Shown here one piece after another: positions 2,813-54,043 of a DNA stretch of 64,000 nt. The notes below the pieces were generated by a model that was not told the DNA's origin, ran no database searches, and saw nothing but the letters and a program-made list of their open reading frames with translations. The stretch's first letter is position 1. Every line of letters starts with the position of its first letter. Position numbers and translations under genes: made by a program. Source of the stretch: Acidobacteriota bacterium (lineage in GTDB: Bacteria; Acidobacteriota; Vicinamibacteria; Vicinamibacterales; UBA2999). Location of the stretch: contig JAUYQQ010000019.1 of NCBI GenBank assembly GCA_030697165.1, forward strand, positions 62,001 to 126,000, given 5' to 3'.

Positions 2813-5239
2813 ATGGCTAAATCGAAGAAGTCCCAGCCACAAGGCAAAGCTGGCAACCCGAAGTCCGCCGCGCACGCCCGTCCGACCGTCAGCGGACCAT
2901 CGAGTCTTCCCTTCTCGCAGGAGAGCGCGGACGCGCTCGAGTCGAAGGCCGCGGCGACGGCCGCGTTGGCAGAGGCGTTTCCGTTTAACGCCCTGAAGCC
3001 GTCGGAGTTCGATCCGGCAGCCGCACTGGCTCCGCTTCAAGGCGCCTCAGCTGAACCACCTGATCAGGCGGCGACCGGCAGCACGCTGACCGAAGCGAAC
3101 GGATCGGACAAAGTGGGCAGCGGCGCGCCCCCCATTGGCATCAACAAGACAATCGCCCCCCTGGACCGGGTTCGCGTGGACTCGAGCGGGCAACGCCTCA
3201 CGACCAACCACGGCGTCCCCGTCGGCGACAACCAGAACTCGTTGAAGCAGGGGCTTCGGGGTCCGACGCTGCTCGAAGACTTCATCCTGCGCGAGAAGAT
3301 CACGCACTTCGACCACGAGCGCATCCCTGAGCGCATTGTGCACGCCCGAGGTTCGGCTGCGCACGGCTTCTTCGAGTGCTACGACTCGATGGCACAGTTC
3401 ACACGAGCTTCACTCTTCGCTGAGGCCGGCAAACAGACGCCGGTGTTCGTCCGCTTCTCAACCGTCGTCGGCGAGCGCGGCTCGACCGACACCGCTCGCG
3501 ATGCCCGCGGCTTCGCGGTGAAGTTCTACACCGACGAAGGCAATTGGGACCTGGTCGGCAACAACATCCCGGTGTTCTTCATTCAAGACGCCATGAAGTT
3601 CCCAGACCTGGTGCATGCGGTCAAGCCCGAACCGCACCACGCCATGCCGCAGGCGGGGTCGGCGCACGACACCTTCTGGGACTTCGCGTCGTTGATGCCC
3701 GAGATCACGCACATGCTGATGTGGGTGATGTCGGACCGGGCGATCCCGAGAAGCTATCGCACCATGCAGGGGTTTGGCGTCCACGCCTATCGCCTCGTCA
3801 ACGACGAGGGCGAGTCGGTCTTCGTGAAGTTCCACTGGTTACCCACGGCCGGGACCCACTCGCTGGTGTGGGATGAAGCGGTGAAGATCTCCGGCGCGGA
3901 TCCGGACTTCCACCGCCGCGATCTGTGGGAAGCGATCGAAGCCGGGGCGTTTCCCGAGTACGAGTTGAACTTCCAGATCGTCACGGAAGACGATGCCGAG
4001 AAGTACTCGTTCGACATTCTCGATGCGACCAAGCTGGTGCCGGAAGAGGTGTCGCCGCTGATTCCAGTCGGCAAGATGACCCTGAACCGGAACCCCGACA
4101 ACTTCTTTGCGGAAACCGAGCAGGTCGCCTTCTGCACCGCCCATGTGGTACCGGGCATCGACTTCTCGAACGACCCGTTGCTGGCGGGCCGCATTCACTC
4201 CTATGTCGACACCCAGATTTCACGCCTGGGCGGACCGAACTTCCACGAGATCCCGATCAATGCTCCCGTGGCGCAGGTCCACAACAACCAGCGCGACGGT
4301 ATGCATCGTCAGGCCATCAACCGCGGGCGCGTCGCCTACGAGCCGAACTCGTTGGGCGGCGGGTGTCCGTTCCAGGCTGGCGCCGCGGGGTTCGTGAGCT
4401 TTGCGGCTAAGGTCGAAAGCCCCGGCGACCACAAGGTGCGCGGCAAGGCGGAGCGGTTTGCCGATCATTACACCCAGGCGACGCTGTTCTGGAACAGCCA
4501 GACCACGGTTGAGAAGACCCACATCATCAACGCGTTTCGCTTCGAGCTGTCAAAGGTGCAGACCGCAGCCATACGCGAGCGAATGGTGTCGGGTCTCATG
4601 AATGTTGCGCCGGAGCTGGCTGATGCCGTAGCGGCCGGCCTGGGGATCACCGAAATGCCCGAGGCCATGCCGAAGGTGCAGCAGAAGAAAGTGCGTCCAG
4701 AAGTGACCGAGTCGAAGGCCCTGTCGCTGTTCGCCCGTCCCGGTGACGGCGGCATTCGCGCCCGGCGGGTCGCGATCCTGGTCGCCGACGGCGTAAACGG
4801 CGACAAGGCCAAGGCGATTGCCGATCGGCTGATGGCTGAAGGCGCGGTCCCGGTGTTCGTCGCTCCGCGCCTCGGTACGGTGGCGAGCAGCGGGACGGCC
4901 ATTCAAGCTGATGCCTCGCTCGAAGTCGCGCCGTCGGTGATCTTCGACGCGATGGTGCTGGCCGACGGTGACGGGTCAGCGGCCATTCTCGCGGCCGACG
5001 GCCGGGCCCTGGAGTTCCTCAAGGATCAGTATCGGCATTGCAAACCGATCATGGTGCTGGCGGGCGCGCTGCCGGTCTTCGACAAGGCGGGTATCCCCCG
5101 CGCGTTGCCGACAGGCAAGCCTGATTCGGGTCTGATCATCGCCGCCGGCGACGCTGGCGAGCCGCCGACCGACGCGTTCATCCGCGCGCTGGCCGCGCAT
5201 CGTCATTTCGATCGGGAGACCGATCCGCCACGGGTGTAA
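2813..5239 (+). CDS. katE: Large-subunit catalase, HPII/KatE type
   Basis: An 808-residue clade-2 catalase that dismutates hydrogen peroxide using heme. The distal histidine is H177 (RIVHARG) and the proximal heme tyrosine is Y464 ([13 protein letters not shown]). These match H128 and Y415 of E. coli HPII with a constant offset of 49, caused by a longer, Ala/Pro/Ser-rich N-terminal extension of about 130 residues. After the catalase barrel and helical domain, the last 150 residues (from about [15 protein letters not shown]) form the flavodoxin/DJ-1-like domain seen only in large-subunit catalases. AGGAG lies 6 nt before the ATG and decides the start. Cytoplasmic. It is followed by the photolyase on the opposite strand, tail to tail. 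Confidence 0.96.
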
Positions 5240-21200: not shown

Positions 21201-23493
21201 TAACCTGATCCCAACGCTTGCCGTTGGCGATTTCTCGCGCGAAGCAGGCTTCGGCTCGGGCGTAGGCTTCGCGTTGCGCACCGGCGGAGATCGGACGCAA
21301 CAACTCCGCATCCTTCGGACACGCGACCCTGGCGGCAGCCGTACGCGACGCCGGCGGGGTGGCAAAGTATGCAGCCGCCCCTTCTCTCACCCACATCGGC
21401 CGGCTCGACAGCACCTCGTCCAGCAGCGCATGCGCCACCTCGTGGCGGATGGTTCGCTCGAGCTGTCCGCGCTGCTTGAGCGTGGTCAGCGGCAACAGGT
21501 CGATGGCGGCGCCGTCGGTCGCGCCCGACACCCACCACGGCTGGCCGGTGGCACGGCCAAAGCTATCGACCGAAGGATGCACGGTGACCCGCAGGCGCGC
21601 GGGCGGCTTGGCGCCAGTGGCCTTCGAAATCTCGTCGCGACTGCGGCGGATCAAGGTCAACAGGCTGGCGCGATCGCCTTCCTCACTCCCCGGCAGGGCC
21701 AAGGCGATGTCGGTAGAAATAGGTGCCAAGGGTGCCACAGGTGCCAGGGGTGCCATCGGTGCCACAGGGCCGGACGGGGTCGGCACGTTGGTCGTTAGCG
21801 CGCTCGGTGAGCCGGCGCCAATGGTCAGGCCCGGATAGTAGAACTTCAGGATCTCGTCGGCGGTCTCGCCTCGCGCCGCGCGCGTGCCGGCGCCGATGAC
21901 GCACAGGCCTACGCCGTGACCAAACCCACGGCCGCGGAAGTGATACCCGCTGCTGGTCCGCTTGACGTCGAACGCCGTGCTCTTGATGGCGGCGAACCCG
22001 GCCACGCGACCCACCGCCATGCGGAACTCGTGGCCGCTCATCTCCGCGGGCGTAAAGCCATCGACCCGCACCCGCGAGACGCGGCCCGACTGGTTGCGGG
22101 CCAGCACGCGGACGTCGCGCAGGCGATCGCCGCGCAGACCGGCGTTGCGCAGCGCCCGTTCCACGTCGCGCACGCGAACCTCGCTCTCCCACGCCGGCTC
22201 GCTCGCATCCGCATCGTCCCGCACCGACGCGGCGTCGGCATAGTCGATGGCGCCGGGCCATACCTCCGACGCCAGTTCGGTGCGGCCGCCGCATGAGGCC
22301 GAATAGAACACAAATGCCGGTTGTCCCCGGCTGAGCAGCAGCCGCCCGGTGGTGGCCTGCGCCGCACGGGTCGTCGTCGGCGTCGCCGCGCGGACCACCT
22401 GGCAGTGCGTCGTGTCGCACAAGTCGAACCCCTCGCGACGATGGCGGTTGCGATTGGCAATGGCGAACGTTCGAGCGGTGATCGCGAGCGCCTGCTGCGC
22501 CGCATCCCCCGCCCGCGGCTGCCCTTCGCCCGCGAGTACTTGCGAGATATAGATATCGACGGCGATGGTCTCGACCCTGGTTTGACCGCTTGCCAGTGTG
22601 CGGCCAAGTCTTATCGGTGCCAAGGGCCCGCCTTCGCGGCCGGAGGCGGATGCCTGGGTGCGCTGGGCAAGAACATCGGCGGCAATCGCCGCGGCATCGA
22701 CACCGGCGCCGCCGGGCGCGGCGACGATAACGCCGTGGGTCGGGCGGTCGGCGGGTGTGAGCGCGACCACCAGGCCGAGCGACACGCCGCTGGGCATCAG
22801 GATGGATCCCGTCTTGGCGAGCGCCGACACGCCGGAATTCTTCAGCGCCGAGGCCGTGCCGTAGTCGGCTGCGCCGCGCAGCCCGTCGAGCAACACGGTC
22901 TTGGTGGCGGGGCTCATCGGCACCGGCGTGTCCTTGCCGGCGCCGGCCAGGCGCGCCAACACGTCGATCATCGCGCGGGGGCTGGTGCGCGGACCTGCGA
23001 GGCCCACCAGGGCGGGTGCCAGGGCCGTACCGGCGGCGAGCGGCGGCAAGCCGGCGGCAAGGCGCGTGCGGTTCACGCGATCGCGCGACAGCCGCGGCGC
23101 CAGCGACACGAAGAAGTCGTTGCAGGAATACGCCAGCGCTTCCGCCGGCGACAGCGCGCGCTTCAGGTCGGGATGCGCGCACACGTACTTCTGGCCGTCG
23201 ACGGTGACCGTCCGCCGGCACATGTGATCGGAATCGGCGCGGATCACGCCGTCTTCGAGCGCGGCCACCAGCGCCACGGCCTTGACGATGGAGCCAGGCA
23301 GGACGGGGGTATCGAGAATGTCGGCGCGGGCTTCGCGCCGCTCACGCGGGTTGTCGAGGTGGCGAACGAAGAACGCTGGACCCGAAGTCGCGGGCCCCTG
23401 CTTGTCCACCGTAGCCGTGGCGAAGGTGGAGGCGTGGAGGCTGGCGACCGCAGACATCGCTGCCAACGCCAGCACGCCCCGCCACCATCTCAT
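21196..23493 (-). CDS. Secreted transpeptidase-like / SpoIID / HExxH metallopeptidase fusion
   Basis: A 765-residue protein from the ATG at 23493, which overlaps the SET gene stop. Signal peptide about 1-22. Domain 1 (about 30-280) is penicillin-binding-like, with S68-x-x-K71, S123-x-N125 and K227-T-G. Domain 2 (about 305-560) is a SpoIID/amidase-enhancer domain, with AQQALAITARTFAIA, CGGRTELASEVWPG and GRGFGHGVGL. Domain 3 (about 595-765) carries H684-E-x-x-H688 with E704 in WVREGAAAYFA, a gluzincin-type zinc site. A Pro/Ala linker (578-592) is written by GGTGCC 9-bp repeats, and SGREGGP (284-290) by another repeat. Likely periplasmic peptidoglycan remodelling. A relation to DUF2300 proteins (YfaQ/MagB) of macroglobulin operons is possible but unchecked. 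Confidence 0.85.
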   Translation of the reverse strand: MRWWRGVLALAAMSAVASLHASTFATATVDKQGPATSGPAFFVRHLDNPRERREARADILDTPVLPGSIVKAVALVAALEDGVIRADSDHMCRRTVTVDGQKYVCAHPDLKRALSPAEALAYSCNDFFVSLAPRLSRDRVNRTRLAAGLPPLAAGTALAPALVGLAGPRTSPRAMIDVLARLAGAGKDTPVPMSPATKTVLLDGLRGAADYGTASALKNSGVSALAKTGSILMPSGVSLGLVVALTPADRPTHGVIVAAPGGAGVDAAAIAADVLAQRTQASASGREGGPLAPIRLGRTLASGQTRVETIAVDIYISQVLAGEGQPRAGDAAQQALAITARTFAIANRNRHRREGFDLCDTTHCQVVRAATPTTTRAAQATTGRLLLSRGQPAFVFYSASCGGRTELASEVWPGAIDYADAASVRDDADASEPAWESEVRVRDVERALRNAGLRGDRLRDVRVLARNQSGRVSRVRVDGFTPAEMSGHEFRMAVGRVAGFAAIKSTAFDVKRTSSGYHFRGRGFGHGVGLCVIGAGTRAARGETADEILKFYYPGLTIGAGSPSALTTNVPTPSGPVAPMAPLAPVAPLAPISTDIALALPGSEEGDRASLLTLIRRSRDEISKATGAKPPARLRVTVHPSVDSFGRATGQPWWVSGATDGAAIDLLPLTTLKQRGQLERTIRHEVAHALLDEVLSSRPMWVREGAAAYFATPPASRTAAARVACPKDAELLRPISAGAQREAYARAEACFAREIANGKRWDQVR
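21721..21763. repeat. GGTGCC 9-bp repeat tract inside the fusion gene
   Basis: About five copies of a 9-bp unit (AGGTGCCAA and variants). On the coding strand it is translated as an in-frame APLAPVAP-type linker between the SpoIID and metallopeptidase domains. Confidence 0.85.
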
Positions 23494-28672: not shown

Positions 28673-28685
28673 GAGACACCTATTC

Positions 28686-28792
28686 TAAGGTGCCTAGGGG
28701 TGCATAAGGTGCCTAAGGTGCCTAAGGTGCCTAGGGTGCCTAAGGTGCCTAAGGTGCCTAGGGTGCCTAAGGTGCCTAAGGTGCCTCGGGTG
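28686..28792. repeat. AAGGTGCCT 9-bp minisatellite (about 11-12 copies)
   Basis: Tandem copies of AAGGTGCCT, with CTAGGGTGC variants, fill the gap between the propeller gene and the PH-domain gene and extend into the 3' end of the latter. It is the longest tract of the GGTGCC family in the window. Confidence 0.95.
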
Positions 28793-29709: not shown

Positions 29710-31152
29710 CTACGGTGCCACATTGAGCGAGGCACGGGCAATGCCTCGGAGCATGCCGCCGAACACCAGGTGGTGCAGCGGTGAGATCGAATACCAATAC
29801 GCCTTGCCGAGCAGGCCGTCCGGATCGAAGGTCGCGACCTGGTTGATGGTGGTGGCATGCGCGTCCTGGCGGACCTCGAACTCGAGCCAGGCGCGGCCGG
29901 GTAGGCGCATTTCGGCCGACAGCCGCAAGCGCACGCCGGGCTCGATCGCCTCAACGCGCCAGAAGTCGAGGGTGTCGCCCACGCGCAGGTGGTCGGGCGA
30001 GGGCCGTCCGCGCCGCATGCCCACGCCACCGGAGAGCAGATCCAGCGCGCCGCGCAGCCGCCAGAGCGAGTTCCAGGCGTACCAGCCGGTATCACCGCCA
30101 ATCCGCTCGATGCATGCGAACACGACCGGCGCCGGCGCGTCCACGGAAATGGACCTCGCGTCCTTCAGCTGCCGGCCGAACTGCACCCCCTGCCACGACG
30201 GCCGTGGCCGCGCCGACGAGACCGCGTCGGTCCATCGCGTGGCCGTCCCGGCGGCATCGCCACCGAGGGCACGCCGCACGGCGGCTTCGACGCCCATCGG
30301 CCGCACCGCGAACGTCCGCAACGCGAGGTCGTCGTTGACCACCGTGGTGTGGACAATGCTTTCGATCAGCTTGCGGCCGACGCGCGCATAGAGCGGCGTG
30401 ATCAGGCCCAGCCACAGGCTGGAGACGTAGGGCGACAGGATGGGCACCGCGAGCATCCGCAGGCGCCGGCCGCGCAACCGCGCGTAGAGCCGCATGATGT
30501 CGGCATACGACACGCGATCGGCGCCGCCAATCTCGTAGACCCGGCAGGCGGTGGCCGGCAGGGTCAGCGCTTCGATCAGGTACTCGAGCAGATCATCAAT
30601 AGCAATGGGCTGCGCGGGAACCCGCACCCACTTGGGCGTGATCATGAACGGCAGCCGCTCGACCAGCGAGCGGATCATCTCGAACGAGAGGCTCCCGGAG
30701 CCAATCACGATCGAGGCGCGGAACTCGAGCACGGGAACGCCCGACTCGCGCAGGATGCGCCCGACTTCCTGCCGGCTGCGAAGATGGGGCGACAGGTCCT
30801 CGTCTTCGCGACCGAGCCCGCCGAGGTAAATGATGCGGCCGACTCCGGCGGCCTTCGCCGCCGCGGCAAAGTTCGCGGCGCCCTGCCGATCGGCCTCCTC
30901 GAAGGATCCCTCGGCGCCCATCGAGTGCACCAGGTAGTACGCCACGTCGACGCCGCGCATGGCCGCGTCCAGGCTTGGTCGCTCGAGCACGTCACCCTGG
31001 ACGACGTCGCGCGCGGAGTGCCCCTGCGTCACCACTTCTGGCCGGCGGGTCAGGCAGCGCACCCTGTGGCCACCGGCCTCGAGCGCGGGCAACAGTCGTC
31101 CGCCGACATAGCCGGTCGCGCCGGTCAGGAGGATGAGGGGGGCCGTCGCCAT
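29710..31152 (-). CDS. Atypical SDR/NAD-binding protein fused to DUF2867
   Basis: A 480-residue protein. The N-terminal Rossmann domain has TGATGYVGG (10-18) and [11 protein letters not shown], typical of the extended/atypical short-chain dehydrogenase group (YbjT-like). The C-terminal domain from about residue 320 ([31 protein letters not shown], written here as positions about 325-355) is DUF2867, an SRPBCC-like module ending in [14 protein letters not shown]. The active-site tyrosine/lysine pair of classical SDRs is not evident, so binding rather than catalysis is possible. It is probably co-transcribed with dps downstream. Confidence 0.87.
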
Positions 31153-31208
31153 GGGGTCTTGCTAGTGTGACGCCTTTATGGACCCCCACGGTCCAGGTAG
31201 AGCCTGAA

Positions 31209-34200
31209 TCAGTGAAAATCGTGCGAATCGATCGCCGCGCTGTCGGGCAGGCCGGCCAGCCTCGACACACGCTCGGCCTTGATCGAGGTGACGCCGTCCT
31301 GGTTCTGCAGCACGCCCTCGACCATGAGAAACGACGCCTCGACGATGGTCAGGCGATCGGTGGCGTAGAGATCGGGCCGGACGATGATGTTGGCGATGCC
31401 GGTTTCGTCTTCGAGCGTGAGGAAGACAAAGCCCTTGGCGGTGCCCGGCCGCTGGCGCGTAATCACCATGCCGGCCGTCCGCACGCGGCGGCCGGCCCGC
31501 GCCTTCGGCAGCTCGATGGCCGGCAGCACGCCGCGCATCGACAGCTCGTGGCGGCGGAAGGTCAGCGGATGCGGGCCAACGGTGAGTCCGGTGCCGGAGT
31601 AGTCGGCGATCAGGCGCTCGGAGACACTCATGTCTGCCAGAGGACTTGGCCCGCCTTCGCGGCCGGAGGCCGCTTCGGCGAGGTCTCGCCGTAGCTGGTC
31701 TGATTCTTCACGAGCGAAGGCGGAGGCTTGGGCGGCTTCCTCGAACAACTCACCTGCAGGACGCACCGCTCGTTCGACTTGCCACAGCGCCGAGCGGCGG
31801 TCGTGGCCGAGCGAGTTGAGCGCGCCGATCTCGGCCAGCACCACCATCTCGTCGCGACGGATCCCGGTGCGGCGCACCAGTTCGTCCACGCTGCGGTAGC
31901 GCCCGCTACGCGCTGGCGCAACGCACCACTGATGGGAGCACACATTGCAGAACCGTCCGACCCCCGGCCCGACTCCCGACTCCCGACTCCCGACTCCCGG
32001 CACAGTTTCAAGCATTGTCGGGTCATCGCACCCGCATTTCGGACAGCGCGTCAGGACGCCGGGTGTATTTTTCTCGGTCGACGAAATGAAAAATACACCC
32101 GGCGTCTTTGTCGCAGCAGCGATGGCCTGCCCCGCTTCCGCACGCAAACCGCGAACGTAGCGCAGGCCGAGTCGGATCGAACCGTCCGCTTCCACCGTGC
32201 AATCCCAGTCCGACACCTGCACATCGATGGGATTGAAGCGCACGCCGCGTCGCTGCGCGTCCTTCACCAGCGTGGCGGGATGGTAGAAGCCCATCGGCTG
32301 GTTGTTGAGCAGGGCCGTGTAGAACGCCGCCGGGTAGTGCGCCTTGAAGTAGGCGCTGGCATACGCCAGCAGTGCGAAGCTGGCCGCGTGCGACTCGGGA
32401 AAGCCATACAGGGCAAACGACGTGATGGCGAGCACAATGCGATTGGCGGTCTCGCCGGTGATGCCGTTCTTCGCCATGCCGTCGCGCAACAGCCCCTCGA
32501 GCTGCCGCATGCGCTTTTCGGAGCGCTTGAAGCCCATGGCGCGCCGCAGGTCTTCGGCCTGCCCGCCGGTGAAGTTGGCCACCACCATCGCCATGCGCAA
32601 CAGCTGCTCCTGGAACAACGGCACGCCCAGCGTGCGCCTGAGGATGGGTTCGAGCAGCGGATGATCGTAGACCACGGCTTCGCGTCCGGCGCGGCGATTC
32701 AGGTACGGATGCACCATCTGCCCGACGATCGGGCCGGGGCGGATGATGGCGACTTCGACGACCAGGTCGTAGAACTTCTCGGGCTTGAGCCGTGGCAGCG
32801 TCGCCATCTGCGCGCGCGACTCGACCTGGAACACGCCAATGGTGTCGGCCGCCCGCAGCATCTGGTAGACCTCGGGGTCGTCCGCGGGAATGGTGGCGAG
32901 GCTGATCTCCGACTCCCGACTCCCGACTCCCGACTCCCGGTCATTAATCAGGTGAATGGTGTCTTGAAGCACCGCCATCATCCCGAGCCCCAACAAGTCC
33001 ACCTTGATGATGCCCATGTCGGCGCAGTCTTCCTTGTCCCACTGCACCACCACGCGGCCGGGCATGCTGGCGTTCTCGAGCGGCACCACCGATGACAGGT
33101 CGCCCTGGCACACCACCATGCCGCCGGAATGCTGGCCCAGGTGACGCGGCAGGTCCTGCAGTTGCCGCCACAGCGTCGCAAAGTGGCGCACGCGCGGTTC
33201 GTCGGCCGCCATGCCGACCTCGGCGAGCTTCTTCGACAAGGTGTCGGCGGGATCGATGAATTCGAACTGGTGCATCACCTTGGCCAGCCGATCGACCTGC
33301 CCCTCGTCCAGGTCGAGCGCCTTGCCCACTTCGCGCGCGGCGCTCTTGCCGCGATAGGTGATGACGTTGGCGGTCATGGCGGCGCCGTGTTGCCCGTACT
33401 TCTGGTAGACGTGCTGGATCACGCGCTCGCGCCGATCGCCGCTCGGCAGGTCGAGATCGATGTCGGGCCACTCGCCGCGCTCTTCCGACAGGAAGCGCTC
33501 GAACAGCAACTCCATCGCCACCGGATCCACGGCGGTGATGCCGAGGCTGTAACAGACGGCGCTATTGGCGGCCGAGCCGCGGCCCTGCACCAGGATGTCC
33601 TGCTGGCGGCAGAAGTTCACGATGTCCCACACGATCAGGAAGTAGCCGGCCAGCTGCAGCTTCTCGATCAGATCCAGTTCGCGGGCCACTTGCGCGCGGG
33701 CCTTGTCGTAATACGGGCGGTAGCGATCGCGTGCACCGACTTCGGCGATCTTGCGGAGAAACGAGCTCTCGGTCTCGCCGTCGGGCACCGGGTAGCGCGG
33801 GAACCGGTAGCCGAGATCAGTCATCGTGAACTGCAGGCGCTCGGCGAGGTCGCGCGTCGCGTGGATGGCGCCGGGCCGATCCGCGAACAGCCGCGCCATC
33901 TGCGCCGGCGGTTTCAAGTAGCGCTCGGCATTCGCCGCCAGGCGGCGGCCGGCCCGGTGCAGCGGCACGTGCTCGCGAATGGAGGTCAGCACGTCGAACA
34001 ACGGCCGCTCTTCGGGCGTGGCGAAGCCGACGCCGCCGGTGGCCACGAGCGGCACGCGAAACGCCTCGGCCAGGCACACCAGCGCGTCGTTGTCGTCTTC
34101 TTGATCGCGGTGCAAGTGCCGCTGCAACTCGACGTACGTGTTGGCGCGGCCAAACGTGCCGACAATGCGATCGAGCAGGCCGCCCACCCCGTACCGCTCG

Positions 34201-34670
34201 GCCCGCAGCAAGGCGCGGCCCGGCATGGCAATGAGCCCGGTCGTGAAGCCGTCGAGTTCGTCGATGGCGAGCGCGCCCTCGCCCTTCGGCGCCCGCAGCT
34301 TCATGCGCGACAGCAGGCGGCAGAGGTTCTTCCATCCTTCCTGTGACGCCACCAGGACAGGAAGATGGAATCGGGAGTCGGGAGTCGGGAGTCGGGAGTC
34401 GGAAACGCTCTTGCCGGGTGACTTTTTCGACTCCCGCTTCCCGACTCCCGACTCCCGGCTGGTTTCGACGGTCAGCTCCGCTCCAATTAACGGGCGGAGA
34501 CCGGCCGCTAACGCTGCCTTATGGAAGCGCGGCGCTCCCGAGACACCGTCGCGATCGAGCAGCGCCACCGCCGGGTAGCCAAGCGTGGCGGCGCGCTCGA
34601 TCAGGGTTTCCGGCGAGGACGCTGCGCGTAAGAAACTAAAGGCCGAGGAAGTATGGAGCTCGATATACAC
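31209..34670 (-). CDS. dnaE2: Error-prone DNA polymerase DnaE2 (ImuC) with repeat-encoded insertions
   Basis: A 1153-residue C-family polymerase. It has a PHP domain (MYIELHTSSAFSFLRAAS), the polymerase core with PDIDLDLPSGDRRERVI and IIKVDLLGLGMMAVLQD, and a C-terminal OB domain (GFVFLTLEDETGIANIIV). It is the catalytic subunit of SOS mutagenesis with ImuA and ImuB. The length exceeds the usual 1050-1100 because repeat DNA is read through in frame: residues 71-102, about 577-587 and about 846-910. The last block combines a TPGV-coding hairpin, two CxxC pairs (CPKCG, CNVC) and a heptamer tract. Another insert (SGREGGP) is near 1000. All leave the frame open. Confidence 0.93.
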   Translation of the reverse strand: MYIELHTSSAFSFLRAASSPETLIERAATLGYPAVALLDRDGVSGAPRFHKAALAAGLRPLIGAELTVETSRESGVGKRESKKSPGKSVSDSRLPTPDSRFHLPVLVASQEGWKNLCRLLSRMKLRAPKGEGALAIDELDGFTTGLIAMPGRALLRAERYGVGGLLDRIVGTFGRANTYVELQRHLHRDQEDDNDALVCLAEAFRVPLVATGGVGFATPEERPLFDVLTSIREHVPLHRAGRRLAANAERYLKPPAQMARLFADRPGAIHATRDLAERLQFTMTDLGYRFPRYPVPDGETESSFLRKIAEVGARDRYRPYYDKARAQVARELDLIEKLQLAGYFLIVWDIVNFCRQQDILVQGRGSAANSAVCYSLGITAVDPVAMELLFERFLSEERGEWPDIDLDLPSGDRRERVIQHVYQKYGQHGAAMTANVITYRGKSAAREVGKALDLDEGQVDRLAKVMHQFEFIDPADTLSKKLAEVGMAADEPRVRHFATLWRQLQDLPRHLGQHSGGMVVCQGDLSSVVPLENASMPGRVVVQWDKEDCADMGIIKVDLLGLGMMAVLQDTIHLINDRESGVGSRESEISLATIPADDPEVYQMLRAADTIGVFQVESRAQMATLPRLKPEKFYDLVVEVAIIRPGPIVGQMVHPYLNRRAGREAVVYDHPLLEPILRRTLGVPLFQEQLLRMAMVVANFTGGQAEDLRRAMGFKRSEKRMRQLEGLLRDGMAKNGITGETANRIVLAITSFALYGFPESHAASFALLAYASAYFKAHYPAAFYTALLNNQPMGFYHPATLVKDAQRRGVRFNPIDVQVSDWDCTVEADGSIRLGLRYVRGLRAEAGQAIAAATKTPGVFFISSTEKNTPGVLTRCPKCGCDDPTMLETVPGVGSRESGVGPGVGRFCNVCSHQWCVAPARSGRYRSVDELVRRTGIRRDEMVVLAEIGALNSLGHDRRSALWQVERAVRPAGELFEEAAQASAFAREESDQLRRDLAEAASGREGGPSPLADMSVSERLIADYSGTGLTVGPHPLTFRRHELSMRGVLPAIELPKARAGRRVRTAGMVITRQRPGTAKGFVFLTLEDETGIANIIVRPDLYATDRLTIVEASFLMVEGVLQNQDGVTSIKAERVSRLAGLPDSAAIDSHDFH
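31650..31723. repeat. CCGCCTTCGC-ended hairpin element inside dnaE2
   Basis: Ends CCGCCTTCGC and GCGAAGGCGG face each other, with an inner GGCGAGGTCTCGCC palindrome. The same layout of about 75 bp is in imuB at 35055-35131, and related ends occur at 22626 and 50498. Confidence 0.75.
31971..32000. repeat. GGGAGTC heptamer tract in dnaE2
   Basis: About four tandem units, translated in frame as GVGSRESGVG near residue 890-900. Confidence 0.9.
32055..32106. repeat. 18-bp-arm hairpin in dnaE2 coding TPGV
   Basis: The arms GACGCCGGGTGTATTTTT (32055-32072) and its exact complement (32089-32106) flank a 16-base loop. Because of the palindrome both arms code for TPGV in the dnaE2 frame. Confidence 0.92.
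32911..32940. repeat. GGGAGTC heptamer tract in dnaE2
   Basis: About four tandem units within the polymerase domain, read as RESGVGSRES near residue 577-587, directly after the DLLGLGMMAVLQDTIHLI segment. Confidence 0.9.
34371..34459. repeat. Inverted pair of GGGAGTC heptamer tracts in the dnaE2 PHP domain
   Basis: Tract 34371-34403 reads GGGAGTC on the plus strand and tract 34429-34459 reads CTCCCGA, with about 25 bp between them, so together they can fold back. They are translated as residues 71-102, between LIGAELTVET and FHLPVLVAS of the PHP domain. Confidence 0.9.
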
Positions 34671-34690
34671 AGATCAAAAGCACGAAAAAA

Positions 34691-34755
34691 CAGGAGATCA
34701 GGAGATTAGGAGCTCAGTCTTTTAAAGAAAATCCTCCTGACCTTTTGATCTCCTG
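34691..34755. repeat. CAGGAGATCAGGAG inverted repeat between imuB and dnaE2
   Basis: CAGGAGATCAGGAGATTAGG (34691-34710) and the opposite-sense TCCTCCTGACC...GATCTCCTG (34731-34755) are separated by an A/T-rich centre with TTTTAAAG. The unit also occurs at 5249-5275. It fills the 86 bp imuB-dnaE2 gap and may attenuate transcription. Confidence 0.7.
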
Positions 34756-34756
34756 C

Positions 34757-36220
34757 TTAATCGATCACTCCCTCTAAGAACCACTGGCCGACACCGCGTT
34801 CGACGACTAGCCGATAGATGGTGCCGTCGGCCAGCGCCACGTCCCACTCGTCGCGATCCCAGGCCTGCCCTTCCTGCCACCACTCGCCCGAGGTGCGCCA
34901 CGGTCCGGCAGACTGGACGATGGCGCCGCTCGAGAAACCCTGGCGATCGGTGGCCACGCGAATGGGGCGGCCTTCCTGCACGGTGACGCGCGTGGGAATG
35001 GGAAACCGGAACCGTCGCAGCGCGCTCGGGACTTCTCCACCAGGTCTCGCCGCCCCGCCTTCGCTCGCCCGGTCTTTAGGCGCGAGCTTCGGCGAGGTCT
35101 CGCCGTAGCGTCCTTCGGCCGCGAAGGCGGACATTTCGAACGCGCCCGGCTTCCAGGTATCCACCAGCCGCGGCGAGCCGACATGCGTGTCGCCCATGAG
35201 CGCGCCCAGCCGCGCGACCAGCGTGGACACCTGCTCGGGCGCCGGCTGCGCGCGTTCGAGCAACGTCCACTGCAGCACGCGGCCCGGGGTCGGCTCAATG
35301 CACACACGCACCGTGTCGATGGGGGCATCGGGCGGGTGCGTTTCGAGATCGAGCAGCACCAACGTGCGCAGCGTCTTGGCATCGCGCATGGGCGACGGCA
35401 GTGGCAGCGTGCGCGCGTGCACCCGCTTGGTGGTGAGGCGCAGCGAGGTGTAGATCACGGCGGCGCCCCGATCGGCCTGCTCCAGCCGTTCCGACAACGG
35501 CTCGAACAAGCGCGCCAGCACGAACGACAACGGCTCGAGGCCTTCGATTGGCCATTCCAGTTCGAGCGCGGCTTCGAACGGCACCTCGTCCACCCACGGC
35601 ACCAGCGGCCGCGCATCCACCCCGCGCGCCCGCGCCTGCCACTGCAGGCCGCGATCGCCCAGGCGTTCGAACACCTCGGGGCCCGCGAGCGCAGCAAAGG
35701 CGCCCAGCGTGCGAATGCCCCACTTGGTGAGGATCTCGAGGTGGCGGTTTTCCTGCGCGCGCGGCTTCGGACGGCTCGCTTGATGCGTCTGACGCGGATG
35801 GTGCCAACCGGAAGAACCAAGTGCCTCAGGTGCCAAGGGTGCCAGGGGTGCCAAAGGTGCCGGGAGGGTGCTGAGTTTCTCGTAGCGATCGAGCACGCTG
35901 ATGCTGAGCGGCGCGAGCGCCTTCTCTTCCCGGCCAGGCTCGACCACGGTCAGTCCGGGCCGGCCGAGTGCGAGCAAGGCAGCGGCCGTTTGCGTGGAGG
36001 CAATTGCCACTCGGGGCGCGGTCCCACCACCGGTGCCATGTTTCGCCAGCGACTCGCTCAGGTGCGCGCCCAGTTCCTGCGGACTACCGAACAGGCGCGA
36101 CAGGCCGCCGGCATCGAGCAACACGAGCGGGCCGACCTGCTCGAAGCGGGGCGTGAAGGCGCGCGCCACCTCGATGATGGCCGCCGCCCGAATCGACGGA
36201 GCAACGAGTGCGGCAAACAC
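34757..36220 (-). CDS. imuB: ImuB, Y-family-like mutagenesis factor
   Basis: A 487-residue protein from a GTG at 36220, just after the imuA stop. It follows the Y-family polymerase fold (LVLLDAGGLSRLFGSPQELGAHL is the palm, then a thumb/helix-hairpin-helix region with LTKWGIRTLGAFAALAG and a little finger with RLFEPLSERLEQADRGA). Catalytic acidic residues of true polymerases are largely missing, as known for ImuB, which serves as a hub linking DnaE2 to the clamp. Two repeat-coded inserts are visible: APLAPLAPLAP at 121-131 (9-bp unit) and a Gly/Ala/Glu stretch around 370-395 (CCGCCTTCGC hairpin). The N-terminus is shorter than usual; an alternative start upstream overlaps imuA. Confidence 0.88.
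   Translation of the reverse strand: MFAALVAPSIRAAAIIEVARAFTPRFEQVGPLVLLDAGGLSRLFGSPQELGAHLSESLAKHGTGGGTAPRVAIASTQTAAALLALGRPGLTVVEPGREEKALAPLSISVLDRYEKLSTLPAPLAPLAPLAPEALGSSGWHHPRQTHQASRPKPRAQENRHLEILTKWGIRTLGAFAALAGPEVFERLGDRGLQWQARARGVDARPLVPWVDEVPFEAALELEWPIEGLEPLSFVLARLFEPLSERLEQADRGAAVIYTSLRLTTKRVHARTLPLPSPMRDAKTLRTLVLLDLETHPPDAPIDTVRVCIEPTPGRVLQWTLLERAQPAPEQVSTLVARLGALMGDTHVGSPRLVDTWKPGAFEMSAFAAEGRYGETSPKLAPKDRASEGGAARPGGEVPSALRRFRFPIPTRVTVQEGRPIRVATDRQGFSSGAIVQSAGPWRTSGEWWQEGQAWDRDEWDVALADGTIYRLVVERGVGQWFLEGVID
35055..35131. repeat. CCGCCTTCGC-ended hairpin element inside imuB
   Basis: Same architecture as 31650-31723 in dnaE2: outer arms CCGCCTTCGC/GCGAAGGCGG and an inner CTTCGGCGAGGTCTCGCCG stretch. 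It is read through in the imuB frame. Confidence 0.78.
35821..35862. repeat. GGTGCC 9-bp tract inside imuB
   Basis: Four to five tandem 9-bp units coding APLAPLAPLAP. Same family as 21721, 28686 and 41335. Confidence 0.9.
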
Positions 36221-36222
36221 GG

Positions 36223-37041
36223 TTACACCGCGTGGACGAAGCGAGTATGAACGGCGACTTGTTGGGCGTGCGACCACCGGGCCGCCGAAACGGCAGCGCC
36301 AGAGCGAACACCACCCAGGCGGCGCGTCCGGTCATGCTCCCCTTTCCAGACGGGAGTGGTATTTCCGACTCCCGACTCCCGACTCCCGACTCCCGTCTGG
36401 ATCGTACGGCCGCCGGAGCTGCGCGCCACGGACTGGGCCGCGAGAATGACGACCGCCGTGTCGCTGCCTTCGATGGCGCGTTCGATGCGGAACCAGGTGG
36501 AGGCCGGCAGCCGGCGCAGCGCCTGCGCCGGCACGTCGATCAGGTCGATTGCGACCAGCGTGCACACGCCCGACTGAACGACCAGGTTCAGCGACTTGAT
36601 CGCGCGATCGATCACCCGCTCCACGAACGTGCCGGGGCCGTTGACCGCGCGCACGCCCGGCAGCCAGGCCGGGTCGATGGCCACCGCGGTTTTCGACACC
36701 GCCTGGCCGCGCACCCACAGCAGGCGCGGCAGCACGAGGCCGCAGGCCGCGGCCGTCGGCGGGTCGAAGCGATCGAAGGTGTCGATCAGCGCCACGGTTT
36801 CGCCACGGCGGGTCGCCGCCGCCAGCGCGGCCCACACCAGTCCCGTACGACCAGACGAAGCCGGTCCCACCACTTCAGACACCTGCCCGCGCGGCAGGCC
36901 ACCGGCGAGTCCGCGGTCCAGGGCCTCGACGTCCAGCGGCGACACCGCGTCTTCGCCCAGGCGTTCGGGAATGGCAGAGGTGAGGGTTCGGTCGAGTTTT
37001 CGCTCTCGGAGCAGGGCTTCTACGGTGGCGCGGACGGCCAT
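36223..37041 (-). CDS. imuA: ImuA, RecA-like factor of the SOS mutagenesis cassette
   Basis: A 272-residue RecA-fold protein of the ImuA/SulA-like group. The Walker-A-like loop is GPASSGRTG (about 59-67); then VALIDTFDRFDP and a Walker-B-like LVAIDLID segment follow. AGGTGAG precedes the ATG. It is the first gene of imuA-imuB-dnaE2, all on the minus strand with close spacing. A GGGAGTC heptamer tract (36366-36397) is translated as TGVGSRESGVG near 216-226, in the C-terminal part where ImuA proteins are variable and ImuB is bound. A candidate LexA-type operator lies 13 bp upstream. Confidence 0.85.
   Translation of the reverse strand: MAVRATVEALLRERKLDRTLTSAIPERLGEDAVSPLDVEALDRGLAGGLPRGQVSEVVGPASSGRTGLVWAALAAATRRGETVALIDTFDRFDPPTAAACGLVLPRLLWVRGQAVSKTAVAIDPAWLPGVRAVNGPGTFVERVIDRAIKSLNLVVQSGVCTLVAIDLIDVPAQALRRLPASTWFRIERAIEGSDTAVVILAAQSVARSSGGRTIQTGVGSRESGVGNTTPVWKGEHDRTRRLGGVRSGAAVSAARWSHAQQVAVHTRFVHAV
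36366..36397. repeat. GGGAGTC heptamer tract inside imuA
   Basis: More than four tandem units in the 3' third of imuA, read in frame. Confidence 0.9.
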
Positions 37042-37053
37042 ATCTCACCTCTA

Positions 37054-37103
37054 TTCGCTTAACTTTCGCCATTGTAACGGCCCGTAGGCGAAAGTCAAGC
37101 GAA
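37054..37103. promoter_or_regulatory. Candidate SOS (LexA-type) operator pair upstream of imuA
   Basis: Two 11-bp-period direct repeats stand in inverted orientation: TTCGC-N6-TTCGC at 37054-37069 and GCGAA-N6-GCGAA at 37088-37103 (the latter within GGCGAAAGTCAAGCGAAAG). The 11-bp period equals that of GTTC-N7-GTTC LexA boxes of alphaproteobacteria. The pair lies between imuA and the divergent small gene, so each direction has one box near its start. That LexA binds here is inference. Confidence 0.6.
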
Positions 37104-37130
37104 AGACGGGTGGGCGTTAGAATCCACAGA

Positions 37131-37427
37131 GTGCTGAACCTCTACTTCACCCGCTATCGCAATCGCCGGTGGAGCCCGATCTGGGGCGCGTTCACGGCCA
37201 CCACCGTGTCGGCGGTGTATCTCATCGCCGGCTTCAGCGGGTATCACTTGAACCGGCGCGCACGGTTCTTCTCCGACGCCGCCTGGGCCGACAGCATCAT
37301 CTGGTGGCAAGTCGGTGCCGGAGCCGCAGTGATACCGGTCGCCATCTACTTTTGGCGCAAGGGCGCACGCGAGATCGATCAACGCCTGGCCACCGAGCAA
37401 AACAGCCACAGATTAAACACAGATTAG
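37131..37427 (+). CDS. Small two-helix membrane protein ending in repeat DNA
   Basis: 98 residues from a GTG at 37131; an upstream GTG at 37110 would add seven codons. There are two hydrophobic helices (about 19-37 and 58-76) with WRKGAREIDQRLA at the cytoplasmic end. The final residues SHRLNTD and the stop come from the CACAGATTAA repeat at 37405, so the original C-terminus was probably replaced. It is divergent from imuA across the candidate SOS operator. No family recognised. Confidence 0.55.
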   Translation: MLNLYFTRYRNRRWSPIWGAFTATTVSAVYLIAGFSGYHLNRRARFFSDAAWADSIIWWQVGAGAAVIPVAIYFWRKGAREIDQRLATEQNSHRLNTD

Positions 37428-44515: not shown

Positions 44516-44580
44516 GGCCGGGAGGGTAATTCTTGTCGGGAGGGCAACTCTTGTCGGGAGGTTGCTTCTGGTCGGGAAGT
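44516..44580. repeat. 18-bp GTCGGGAGG-core minisatellite, array 1
   Basis: Four units with an 18-bp period after the MFS stop, such as GTCGGGAGGGCAACTCTT and GTCGGGAGGTTGCTTCTG. The first nine bases are constant, the last nine vary. Confidence 0.85.
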
Positions 44581-44904: not shown

Positions 44905-45095
44905 GGGAAGGAGCCACTTGACGGGACGGCACTCCTTGACGGGAGGTTGACTCTTGTCGGGAGTCGCAACGTTCCAGAAACGGGTTCGAATCCGCCTTCG
45001 GGGACGCCAGTCCGAAGCGACGCACCATCCCGACAGGAACCACCCTCCCGTCGAGCGGTGCCCTCCCGACGAGAAGTGCCCCCCGACAAGAATCA
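44905..45095. repeat. 18-bp GTCGGGAGG-core minisatellite, inverted pair of arrays 2 and 3
   Basis: Array 2 (44913-44972) has three units in plus sense (GACGGGAGGTTGACTCTT and others). Array 3 (45028-45095) has four units in minus sense (CCCTCCCGACGAGAAGTG and others), about 55 bp apart. Together they could form a long imperfect stem. The space between genes 44862-45099 contains nothing else recognised. Confidence 0.85.
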
Positions 45096-45099
45096 GGAA

Positions 45100-45747
45100 C
45101 TAGCGGCCGCCGCGCTCGATGACGAGCTTGAGCGCCGCCTGTTTGATCTGCGGCCTGATGTTCCAGCTCTTCGCCATCGCCTGCAGGTGCCTGATGTTGA
45201 GTCCGCTGATCAGCTTGAGGGCCGTGGGCGTCGGCGTCTTCGGGTTCTGGACGAGATTGAGCTTGACCTGCTCGTTCTGCATCCACTGCGCTGAGGTGGC
45301 GATCAGGTCGGCCACTTGTGCGTTCAAGGTGCCGAGCCTGGTGATCTCGAGGATCTCGTCCAGCGTGATCCGCGGGTTCTTGCACACATAGAACAAGACC
45401 TGCGGATCGACATCCCGGATTAGCAAGACCCGCGTCGCGCGATCGGCCTTGCCGGCGAGAATCAGCTTCTGTGCCCGCGGCATGGCGCGGAGCGCCTCGA
45501 TCGGCGACAGCCGCCTGGCGGCGTCGGCGGTCTCCGGCTCGATCGAGTGACGCTCGACACAACCGGGACACACCCCGGACTCGGCATCCGTGGTGTGGCA
45601 CGCGCAATCACACGCACCGCCGTCGGTCAGTGCTGCGGCTTCTGGTCCCGACAAGGATTGCCTCCCGACAGGCGGTGCCCTCCCGACACGAATTGCCCTC
45701 CCGTCTGGCGCAAGCCAGTCACTGCTGCGGTTTCTTCTCCGCCGCAT
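45100..45747 (-). CDS. Hypothetical protein with Cys-rich segment and helical repeats
   Basis: 215 residues if started at 45747. The first 35 residues (RAIRVGRAPPVGRQSLSG) are coded by the 18-bp minisatellite, so the true start may be later; no internal ATG stands before the Cys-rich part. That part (ACDCACH..CPGC) could bind a metal. The remainder, from SPIEALRAMPRAQKLILAG, is a series of amphipathic helices with LFYVCKNPRITLDEILEI and LNLVQNPKTPTPTALKLI, resembling helical (HEAT- or leucine-rich-variant-type) repeats. Family not recognised; a regulatory or scaffold role is only a guess. Downstream of the 385-residue secreted protein on the same strand, overlapping it by 29 bp. Confidence 0.55.
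   Translation of the reverse strand: MRRRRNRSSDWLAPDGRAIRVGRAPPVGRQSLSGPEAAALTDGGACDCACHTTDAESGVCPGCVERHSIEPETADAARRLSPIEALRAMPRAQKLILAGKADRATRVLLIRDVDPQVLFYVCKNPRITLDEILEITRLGTLNAQVADLIATSAQWMQNEQVKLNLVQNPKTPTPTALKLISGLNIRHLQAMAKSWNIRPQIKQAALKLVIERGGR
45646..45717. repeat. 18-bp minisatellite, array 4 (coding)
   Basis: Four units in minus sense (CCTCCCGACAGGCGGTGC and others), translated within the N-terminus of the 45100-45747 gene as V-G-R-containing hexapeptides, since 18 bp is six codons. Confidence 0.85.
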
Positions 45748-53981: not shown

Positions 53982-54043
53982 TCAGGGATCAGGGATCAGG
54001 GATCAGGGATCAGGGATCAGGGATCAGGGATCAGGGATCAGGG
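53982..54043. repeat. ATCAGGG heptamer array (about 9 copies)
   Basis: A near-perfect tandem array of 7-bp units between two minus-strand genes, ending 4 bp before the stop of the permease gene (54047). It has the same period as the GGGAGTC family but another sequence. Confidence 0.95.

Follow-up and report, generated by a model that had tools for sequence, protein, structure and literature searches.

A predicted zinc ribbon in DnaE2 of an Acidobacteriota order and the repeats that occupy its linkers

The dnaE2 gene of an Acidobacteriota bacterium raises the question of whether a protein insert that combines a DNA hairpin, two cysteine pairs and a heptamer array was assembled largely from repeat DNA, as proposed in an earlier note on this sequence, or represents an older module in which repeats settled later. 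In many bacteria, the mutations of damage-induced mutagenesis are made by DnaE2, an error-prone, mutation-making polymerase, and the host order consists of soil and water bacteria. In the window, i.e. the entire stretch of 64,000 nucleotides that was analysed, dnaE2 (imuC), encoding an error-prone DNA polymerase III alpha, occupies positions 31209..34670 of the minus strand as a single open frame of 1153 aa. The protein scores as DnaE2 with the NCBIfam model NF004225 'error-prone DNA polymerase' (1216 bits vs. a cut-off of 939, residues 2-1153), and Pfam identifies its PHP, DNA_pol3_alpha, finger, HHH_6 and OB domains. Upstream of dnaE2, also on the minus strand, are an imuB-like gene (34757..36277) for an inactive Y-family polymerase partner and an imuA-like gene (36223..37041), both assigned by position and protein reading. 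In published surveys, DnaE2 has the same PHP-Pol3-(HhH)2-OB domains, and the gene order imuA-imuB-dnaE2 given there would be shared by the window if its two neighbouring genes are assigned correctly.

Alignment to ribbonless DnaE2 proteins of the order (e.g. L051, L181, L187) places an insert of ~70 residues, not 65 as previously counted, between two HhH motifs, at residues ~853-923 (31902..32114, minus strand). The insert interrupts Pfam HHH_6, the best stretch of which covers residues 809-856, and the hypervariable interval extends from residue 852 to 920. Between ...GQAIAAA and RYRSVDEL it reads TKTPGVFFISSTEKNTPGVLTR CPKCG CDDPTMLET VPGVGSRESGVGPGVGRF CNVC SHQWCVAPARSG, with the DNA hairpin, CPKCG, the heptamer array and CNVC following one another as had been described. 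The hairpin is a palindromic repeat in linker 1 (32055..32106, minus strand) with the in-frame reading K-TPGVFFISSTEKN-TPGV. Residues 876-915 (31926..32045, minus strand) form a predicted zinc ribbon, CPKCG...FCNVCSHQW, with cysteines C876, C879, C908 and C911, and the heptamer array (GGGAGTC)4.6 (31968..31999, minus strand) encodes residues ~891-901. In a full-length AlphaFold2 model of the window DnaE2 (51 sequences), which is of modest confidence (mean pLDDT 72.7), ribbon strands are predicted at residues 887-890, 904-908 and 914-917; the heptamer-encoded residues lie in the tip loop of the beta-hairpin, between the strands 887-890 and 904-908. The four cysteines would hold one Zn2+.

A comparison with solved structures supports the predicted fold. 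In the (HhH)2-ribbon segment of a relative with short linkers (L113), the pLDDT of the AlphaFold2 ribbon core was ~91, and VIA-align superimposed the ribbon of a relative's model on the NrdR zinc ribbon with 1.4 A over 35 residues and a Z of 4.0, a low value, as for any 35-residue ribbon. The next structural matches were the Sec23/24, RPB9 and TFIIB ribbons, and the HhH part of the model matched PolC (Z 5.0). Foldseek yielded no match in the PDB with E < 0.001, as is to be expected for so small a domain, and the sequence profile reached DpnI and an RNA polymerase II zinc ribbon with E ~0.001-0.002. The strands and the NrdR match agree with the earlier suggestion that the two CxxC pairs form a zinc ribbon whose loop is the heptamer tract. 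Membership in a named Pfam zinc-ribbon family (IS1595, YjdM, TFIIS and others) was rejected, since the best score, 21.5 bits with Zn_ribbon_IS1595, did not reach the gathering cut-off of 25.4 and the DnaE2 ribbon stays below the cut-offs of all the other such families as well. From its motif and its predicted fold, the core of the insert is classed as a three-stranded zinc ribbon outside any named family. The ribbons of NrdR (PDB 9fxk, 7p37), RPB9, TFIIS and TFIIB are likewise three-stranded with CxxC...CxxC, but the predicted DnaE2 ribbon differs from them in being located within a polymerase, between two HhH motifs.

The age of the cysteine module can be judged from the relatives, nearly all of whose genomes are MAGs. 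DnaE or DnaE2 matches were found in 39 of 40 relatives, and the HhH1-HhH2 region was read first in the 30 best of them and then in 141 loci. These readings reveal a constant core, CPKCGCDD-(P)SM(L/I)E ... (F/Y)CN(V/T)C(S/A)H(E/Q/D)W, the flanking linkers of which are unalignable. Of 103 distinct DnaE2 proteins from the class, 67 carry the core at the same position, with or without repeats of the window type. C876, C879, C908 and C911, and thus both CxxC knuckles, are invariant across 51 aligned full-length sequences, as are K878, G880 and D883. In three sets of related species, pN/pS in the ribbon core was 0.05, 0.07 and 0.14, compared with 0.25, 0.22 and 0.26 in the flanking HhH motifs. The low pN/pS, the invariant core and the unalignable linkers together indicate that the cysteine module is old and selected and that the repeats are later fill. 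Judged from these alignments, the module is under purifying selection and the insert consists of two layers of different age, an older ribbon core and younger linker repeats.

In the genomes surveyed, the ribbon is confined to one lineage. In a survey of 126 genomes of the class, ribbon DnaE2 was present in most families of the Vicinamibacterales-type order and absent from family f10 and from the other orders (f16-f19). A phylum-wide sample of 297 genomes contained no full ribbon match outside the order; the sole full-coverage match there, in G159 (L288), has an insert that lacks the cysteines. When 84,980 GTDB species were scanned with a ribbon-HhH profile, the 72 loci obtained were all of this Acidobacteriota type by sequence, although a diverged ribbon would escape a scan whose patterns are the ribbon motifs themselves. 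Nearly all 72 loci carry titles such as Acidobacteria, Vicinamibacteria or related names. Five loci (L081, L083, L102, L104, L140) are titled Cyanobacteria, Acidimicrobiia or Bifidobacterium yet encode a Vicinamibacterales-type ribbon DnaE2, and they are probably mis-titled MAG bins. DnaE2-type genes of Nitrospirota, Burkholderia, Rhizobium and Deinococcus plasmids, which were read directly, have a short connection at the site and no ribbon. A wide distribution of the ribbon in DnaE2 of other phyla was thus found neither in the GTDB scan nor in the phylum survey nor in the directly read genes. The earlier note had held that only the heptamers and the hairpin would be new if unrelated bacteria had CPKCG/CNVC at this place. 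The motif does occur there in relatives across the order and not in unrelated bacteria, which means that the ribbon itself is also lineage-specific.

The history of the ribbon was followed on a tree of 103 DnaE2 proteins, computed from 999 core columns from which the ribbon and the variable loops were left out. On this tree, obtained by a quick method with SH-aLRT support only and a midpoint root, the ribbon needs 7 state changes, all forced by starred branches, whereas shuffled labels need 29.8 on average. The pattern is best explained by a single gain basal to a clade of 74 rows and six clean losses (L188/L189, L187, L052, L181, L180, L051). The cleanest loss falls within one genus, in which the ribbon is present in L048 and absent in L181. 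No convincing second copy of the ribbon was found elsewhere in the genome; the other matches of the 70-aa query resemble repeat peptides.

These observations make it probable that a structural zinc ribbon was gained once, has been kept by purifying selection and had its linkers filled later, in frame and separately in each lineage. The ribbon would have been acquired between the HhH motifs of DnaE2 in the ancestor of most of the order. Cheap linkers would lie on both sides of it and at the hairpin tip, and they would then have been colonised in frame by whichever repeat was multiplying in each genome. Because it was cleanly lost at least six times, the ribbon is accessory and dispensable for the polymerase. 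The losses and the freely varying linkers would also suit a mere passenger, a former neutral insertion whose cysteines are kept only for harmless folding, and the site indeed accepts inserts other than ribbons (L184, L288). This explanation is rather unlikely, since purifying selection acts more strongly on the core, including its non-cysteine residues D, E and W, than on the HhH motifs beside it, and since the ribbon has been retained in most families of the order.

A role for the selected ribbon can be proposed from its position. HhH motifs are known to bind DNA, and RPB9/TFIIS-type zinc ribbons act on nucleic-acid machines. Together with the similarity in fold, this would be consistent with a DNA-binding element that aids the (HhH)2 region in binding the duplex or the lesion, independently of ImuB; such a role is unlikely in view of the D/E-rich ribbon core (CDDPSMLE). 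In a published AlphaFold model, the mutasome is arranged so that the (HhH)2 region of DnaE2 lies against the ImuB thumb (PMC12926913). According to the structural reading that we prefer, a rigid ribbon projecting from (HhH)2 would contribute a contact, either inside the ImuA-ImuB-DnaE2 mutasome or to the DNA duplex; most likely, it provides the mutasome with a structural or protein contact that the polymerase can do without. To judge from the repeated losses, such a contact would benefit some lineages but be inessential.

The linkers vary with the repeats of their hosts. Linker 1 of the ribbon contains at least five different repeats among the relatives: the ACGCCGGGTGTA palindrome in the window, an inverted CCTTCGCTCG/CGAGCTTCGG element in five species of the same genus, AAGGCAG heptamers in G001 and G002, CACTTCT heptamers in G004 and a CGCCGGGCTTTAGCCCGGC hairpin in G020. 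Repeat-like fill at the site is also seen in ribbonless DnaE2 (L184, L218). The repeats thus appear to decorate the linkers of an older module that they did not build. In the window, a genus-specific palindrome would have entered linker 1 and a GGGAGTC array the tip loop. As a separate observation, an intein-like insert of ~147 residues interrupts the DnaE2 of another relative (L211 in G040) around residue 759/760.

The hairpin of linker 1 is a perfect inverted repeat of 19 nt, one more than the 18 first reported, with arms at 32055-32073 and 32088-32106 separated by a loop of 14 nt; both arms translate as TPGV, as had been noticed. It belongs to a family with the pattern ACGCCGGGT N22-52 ACCCGGCGT, of which the host genome contains 27 full copies and the reversed control none, so that the hairpin is no chance feature. 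The family has a median stem of 18 bp and loops of 9-29 nt. The arms covary, in that stem positions 10-12 are paired in all 27 copies despite two or three different pairs, as expected of a palindrome that is kept or corrected as a palindrome. Four of eight genomes of the same genus contain 1-7 copies, and none were found in 31 genomes sampled outside the genus. Copies are inserted in frame in dnaE2, in a mutS2-like gene and at the N-terminus of a lipoprotein-like gene, and in relatives in YbeY-like and glycosyltransferase-like ORFs, the gene names being based on protein reading. The mutS2-like copy lies at G000:C9:209915-209965 (L013) and the copy at the lipoprotein-like gene start at G000:C8:23016-23065 (L011/L227), with an orthologous copy in G003 (L243).

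The hairpin was not recognised as a known RNA, Rfam having no match in 31000-37200. REP-type sequences inserted in frame have been published, and DnaE2 and other repair genes are named among their targets (PMC3733652). With the GTAG- and CGTC-tagged REPs and the Rickettsia RPE (PMC3733652), the window palindrome shares the property of a short dispersed palindrome located in frame within ORFs; it resembles the Rickettsia palindromic element in behaviour, both being dispersed palindromes that occur in frame within protein-coding genes. It differs from the REPs of that study in sequence and geometry and in its confinement to one Acidobacteriota genus. In particular, it is not a CGTC-tagged REP, in which a stem of 8-9 bp and a loop of 4-5 nt are accompanied by a CCA tail (PMC3733652).

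The array in the tip loop (31968-31999) consists of 4.6 copies of CCCGACT, GGGAGTC on the coding strand, with a 100% match. Genome-wide counts, which combine pattern searches with a 400 kb sample, gave 105 matches of the GGGAGTC 18-mer GGGAGTCGGGAGTCGGGA (57 forward and 48 reverse) and none of the control; GGGAGTC arrays are rare or absent in most relatives. Five GGGAGTC-type arrays are located in the 5.8 kb of the imu cassette (window 31968-36395) vs. 0.15 expected (Poisson P ~5e-7), a density ~34 times that of the 400 kb sample. They include an array at 32909-32939 in a second insertion-tolerant loop (aa 577-588; 32907..32942, minus strand), an inverted pair at 34367-34402 and 34428-34457 in a third (aa 68-103 of the PHP domain; 34362..34469, minus strand) and an in-frame array at 36365-36395 in the imuA-like gene (TGVGSRESGVGN). 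A fourth loop (aa 977-1009; 31644..31742, minus strand) is without an array in the window copy.

The accumulation of arrays extends beyond this genome. Arrays of period 7, 14 or 21 occur in 61 of 101 DnaE2 genes; the 340.5 kb searched contain 167 such arrays (0.49 per kb), compared with 8 over 83.4 kb at DnaE1 loci (0.096 per kb) and 0.025 period-7 arrays per kb in the 400 kb sample of the host genome. One control gene and a genome sample, not the full set of genes, serve as the reference here. In 20 genomes in which the two genes were compared as a pair, tandem arrays made up 2664 of 68,565 bp in DnaE2 ORFs and 295 of 71,091 bp in DnaE1 ORFs, and no period-7 arrays were listed for the latter. 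The flanks of dnaE2, imuB included, are also rich in arrays (0.40 per kb). The heptamer units differ between species, the arrays often come as inverted pairs, and their sites are mostly the same four DnaE2 loops (aa 68-103, 577-588, 852-920 and 977-1009). The GGGAATC heptamer arrays of Xanthomonas and Nostoc, which are under-represented on the coding strands of ORFs (PMC4692102), are similar in being G-rich, 7 bp in period, about four units long, dispersed and of G-quadruplex potential. The window array fits (GGGANTN)n without containing a GGGAATC unit. Unlike the Xanthomonas and Nostoc arrays, those described here are concentrated within the imu genes and have species-specific units.

A 7-bp repeat encodes the same cyclic peptide of seven residues in all three frames and is therefore free of stops if one frame is. 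One unit more or fewer shifts the reading frame downstream, and three units only make the loop longer. The imuA-imuB-dnaE2 cassette of the order could thus be a contingency locus in which changes in heptamer units switch the mutator polymerase off and on. The array density in DnaE2 relative to DnaE1 and to the genome would fit such a locus, as would the dnaE2 of L148/L214, whose frame is interrupted precisely at a (CACGAGC)n array that follows the ribbon immediately (L148 ~3220-3330). The break may be due to slippage by one unit or to an assembly error in a single MAG, and we regard a contingency locus as doubtful. Least of all can it be maintained that hairpin and heptamers assembled a new zinc domain inside this organism's polymerase: about half of the window insert is repeat-derived and the heptamer forms the predicted ribbon loop, but relatives have the ribbon with other linkers, the cysteine core is common to species with neither repeat, the palindrome is restricted to this genus and species differ in their heptamer unit, which makes repeat assembly extremely improbable.

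Two features appear to be unreported. One is the order-specific DnaE2 ribbon at the (HhH)2 site; the other is the marked accumulation in DnaE2 of 7-bp arrays with species-specific units, with none in DnaE1 ORFs. A literature search, which covered few subscription journals, revealed nothing that joins DnaE2 and a zinc ribbon. In surveys of DnaE-type polymerases, the passages retrieved by search terms mention no zinc ribbon in DnaE2, and the only zinc domain noted in them for a DnaE is a C-terminal Lar-like domain of one DnaE1. An order-wide ribbon at the region presumed to touch ImuB provides natural pairs with and without it, including two species of one genus, which could reveal what a contact in the ImuB region does. 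The dozens of linker cases illustrate the acceptance of selfish or slippage-born DNA into an enzyme only where the fold permits.

The window contains further tandem arrays. Arrays of a 9-bp unit of one type (CTAAGGTGC / GGTGCCAAG) lie at 28685-28786, 21722-21769 and 35829-35861, the last within the imuB-like gene. Neighbouring 18-bp arrays with CGGGAGGG-type units occupy 44519-44577, 45043-45092 and 45646-45703, and a similar 18-bp unit (CGGGAGGGAACTACTGGT) is found in dnaE2 of G008 of the same genus. The longest heptamer array of the window consists of 8.9 perfect copies of TCAGGGA at 53982-54043.
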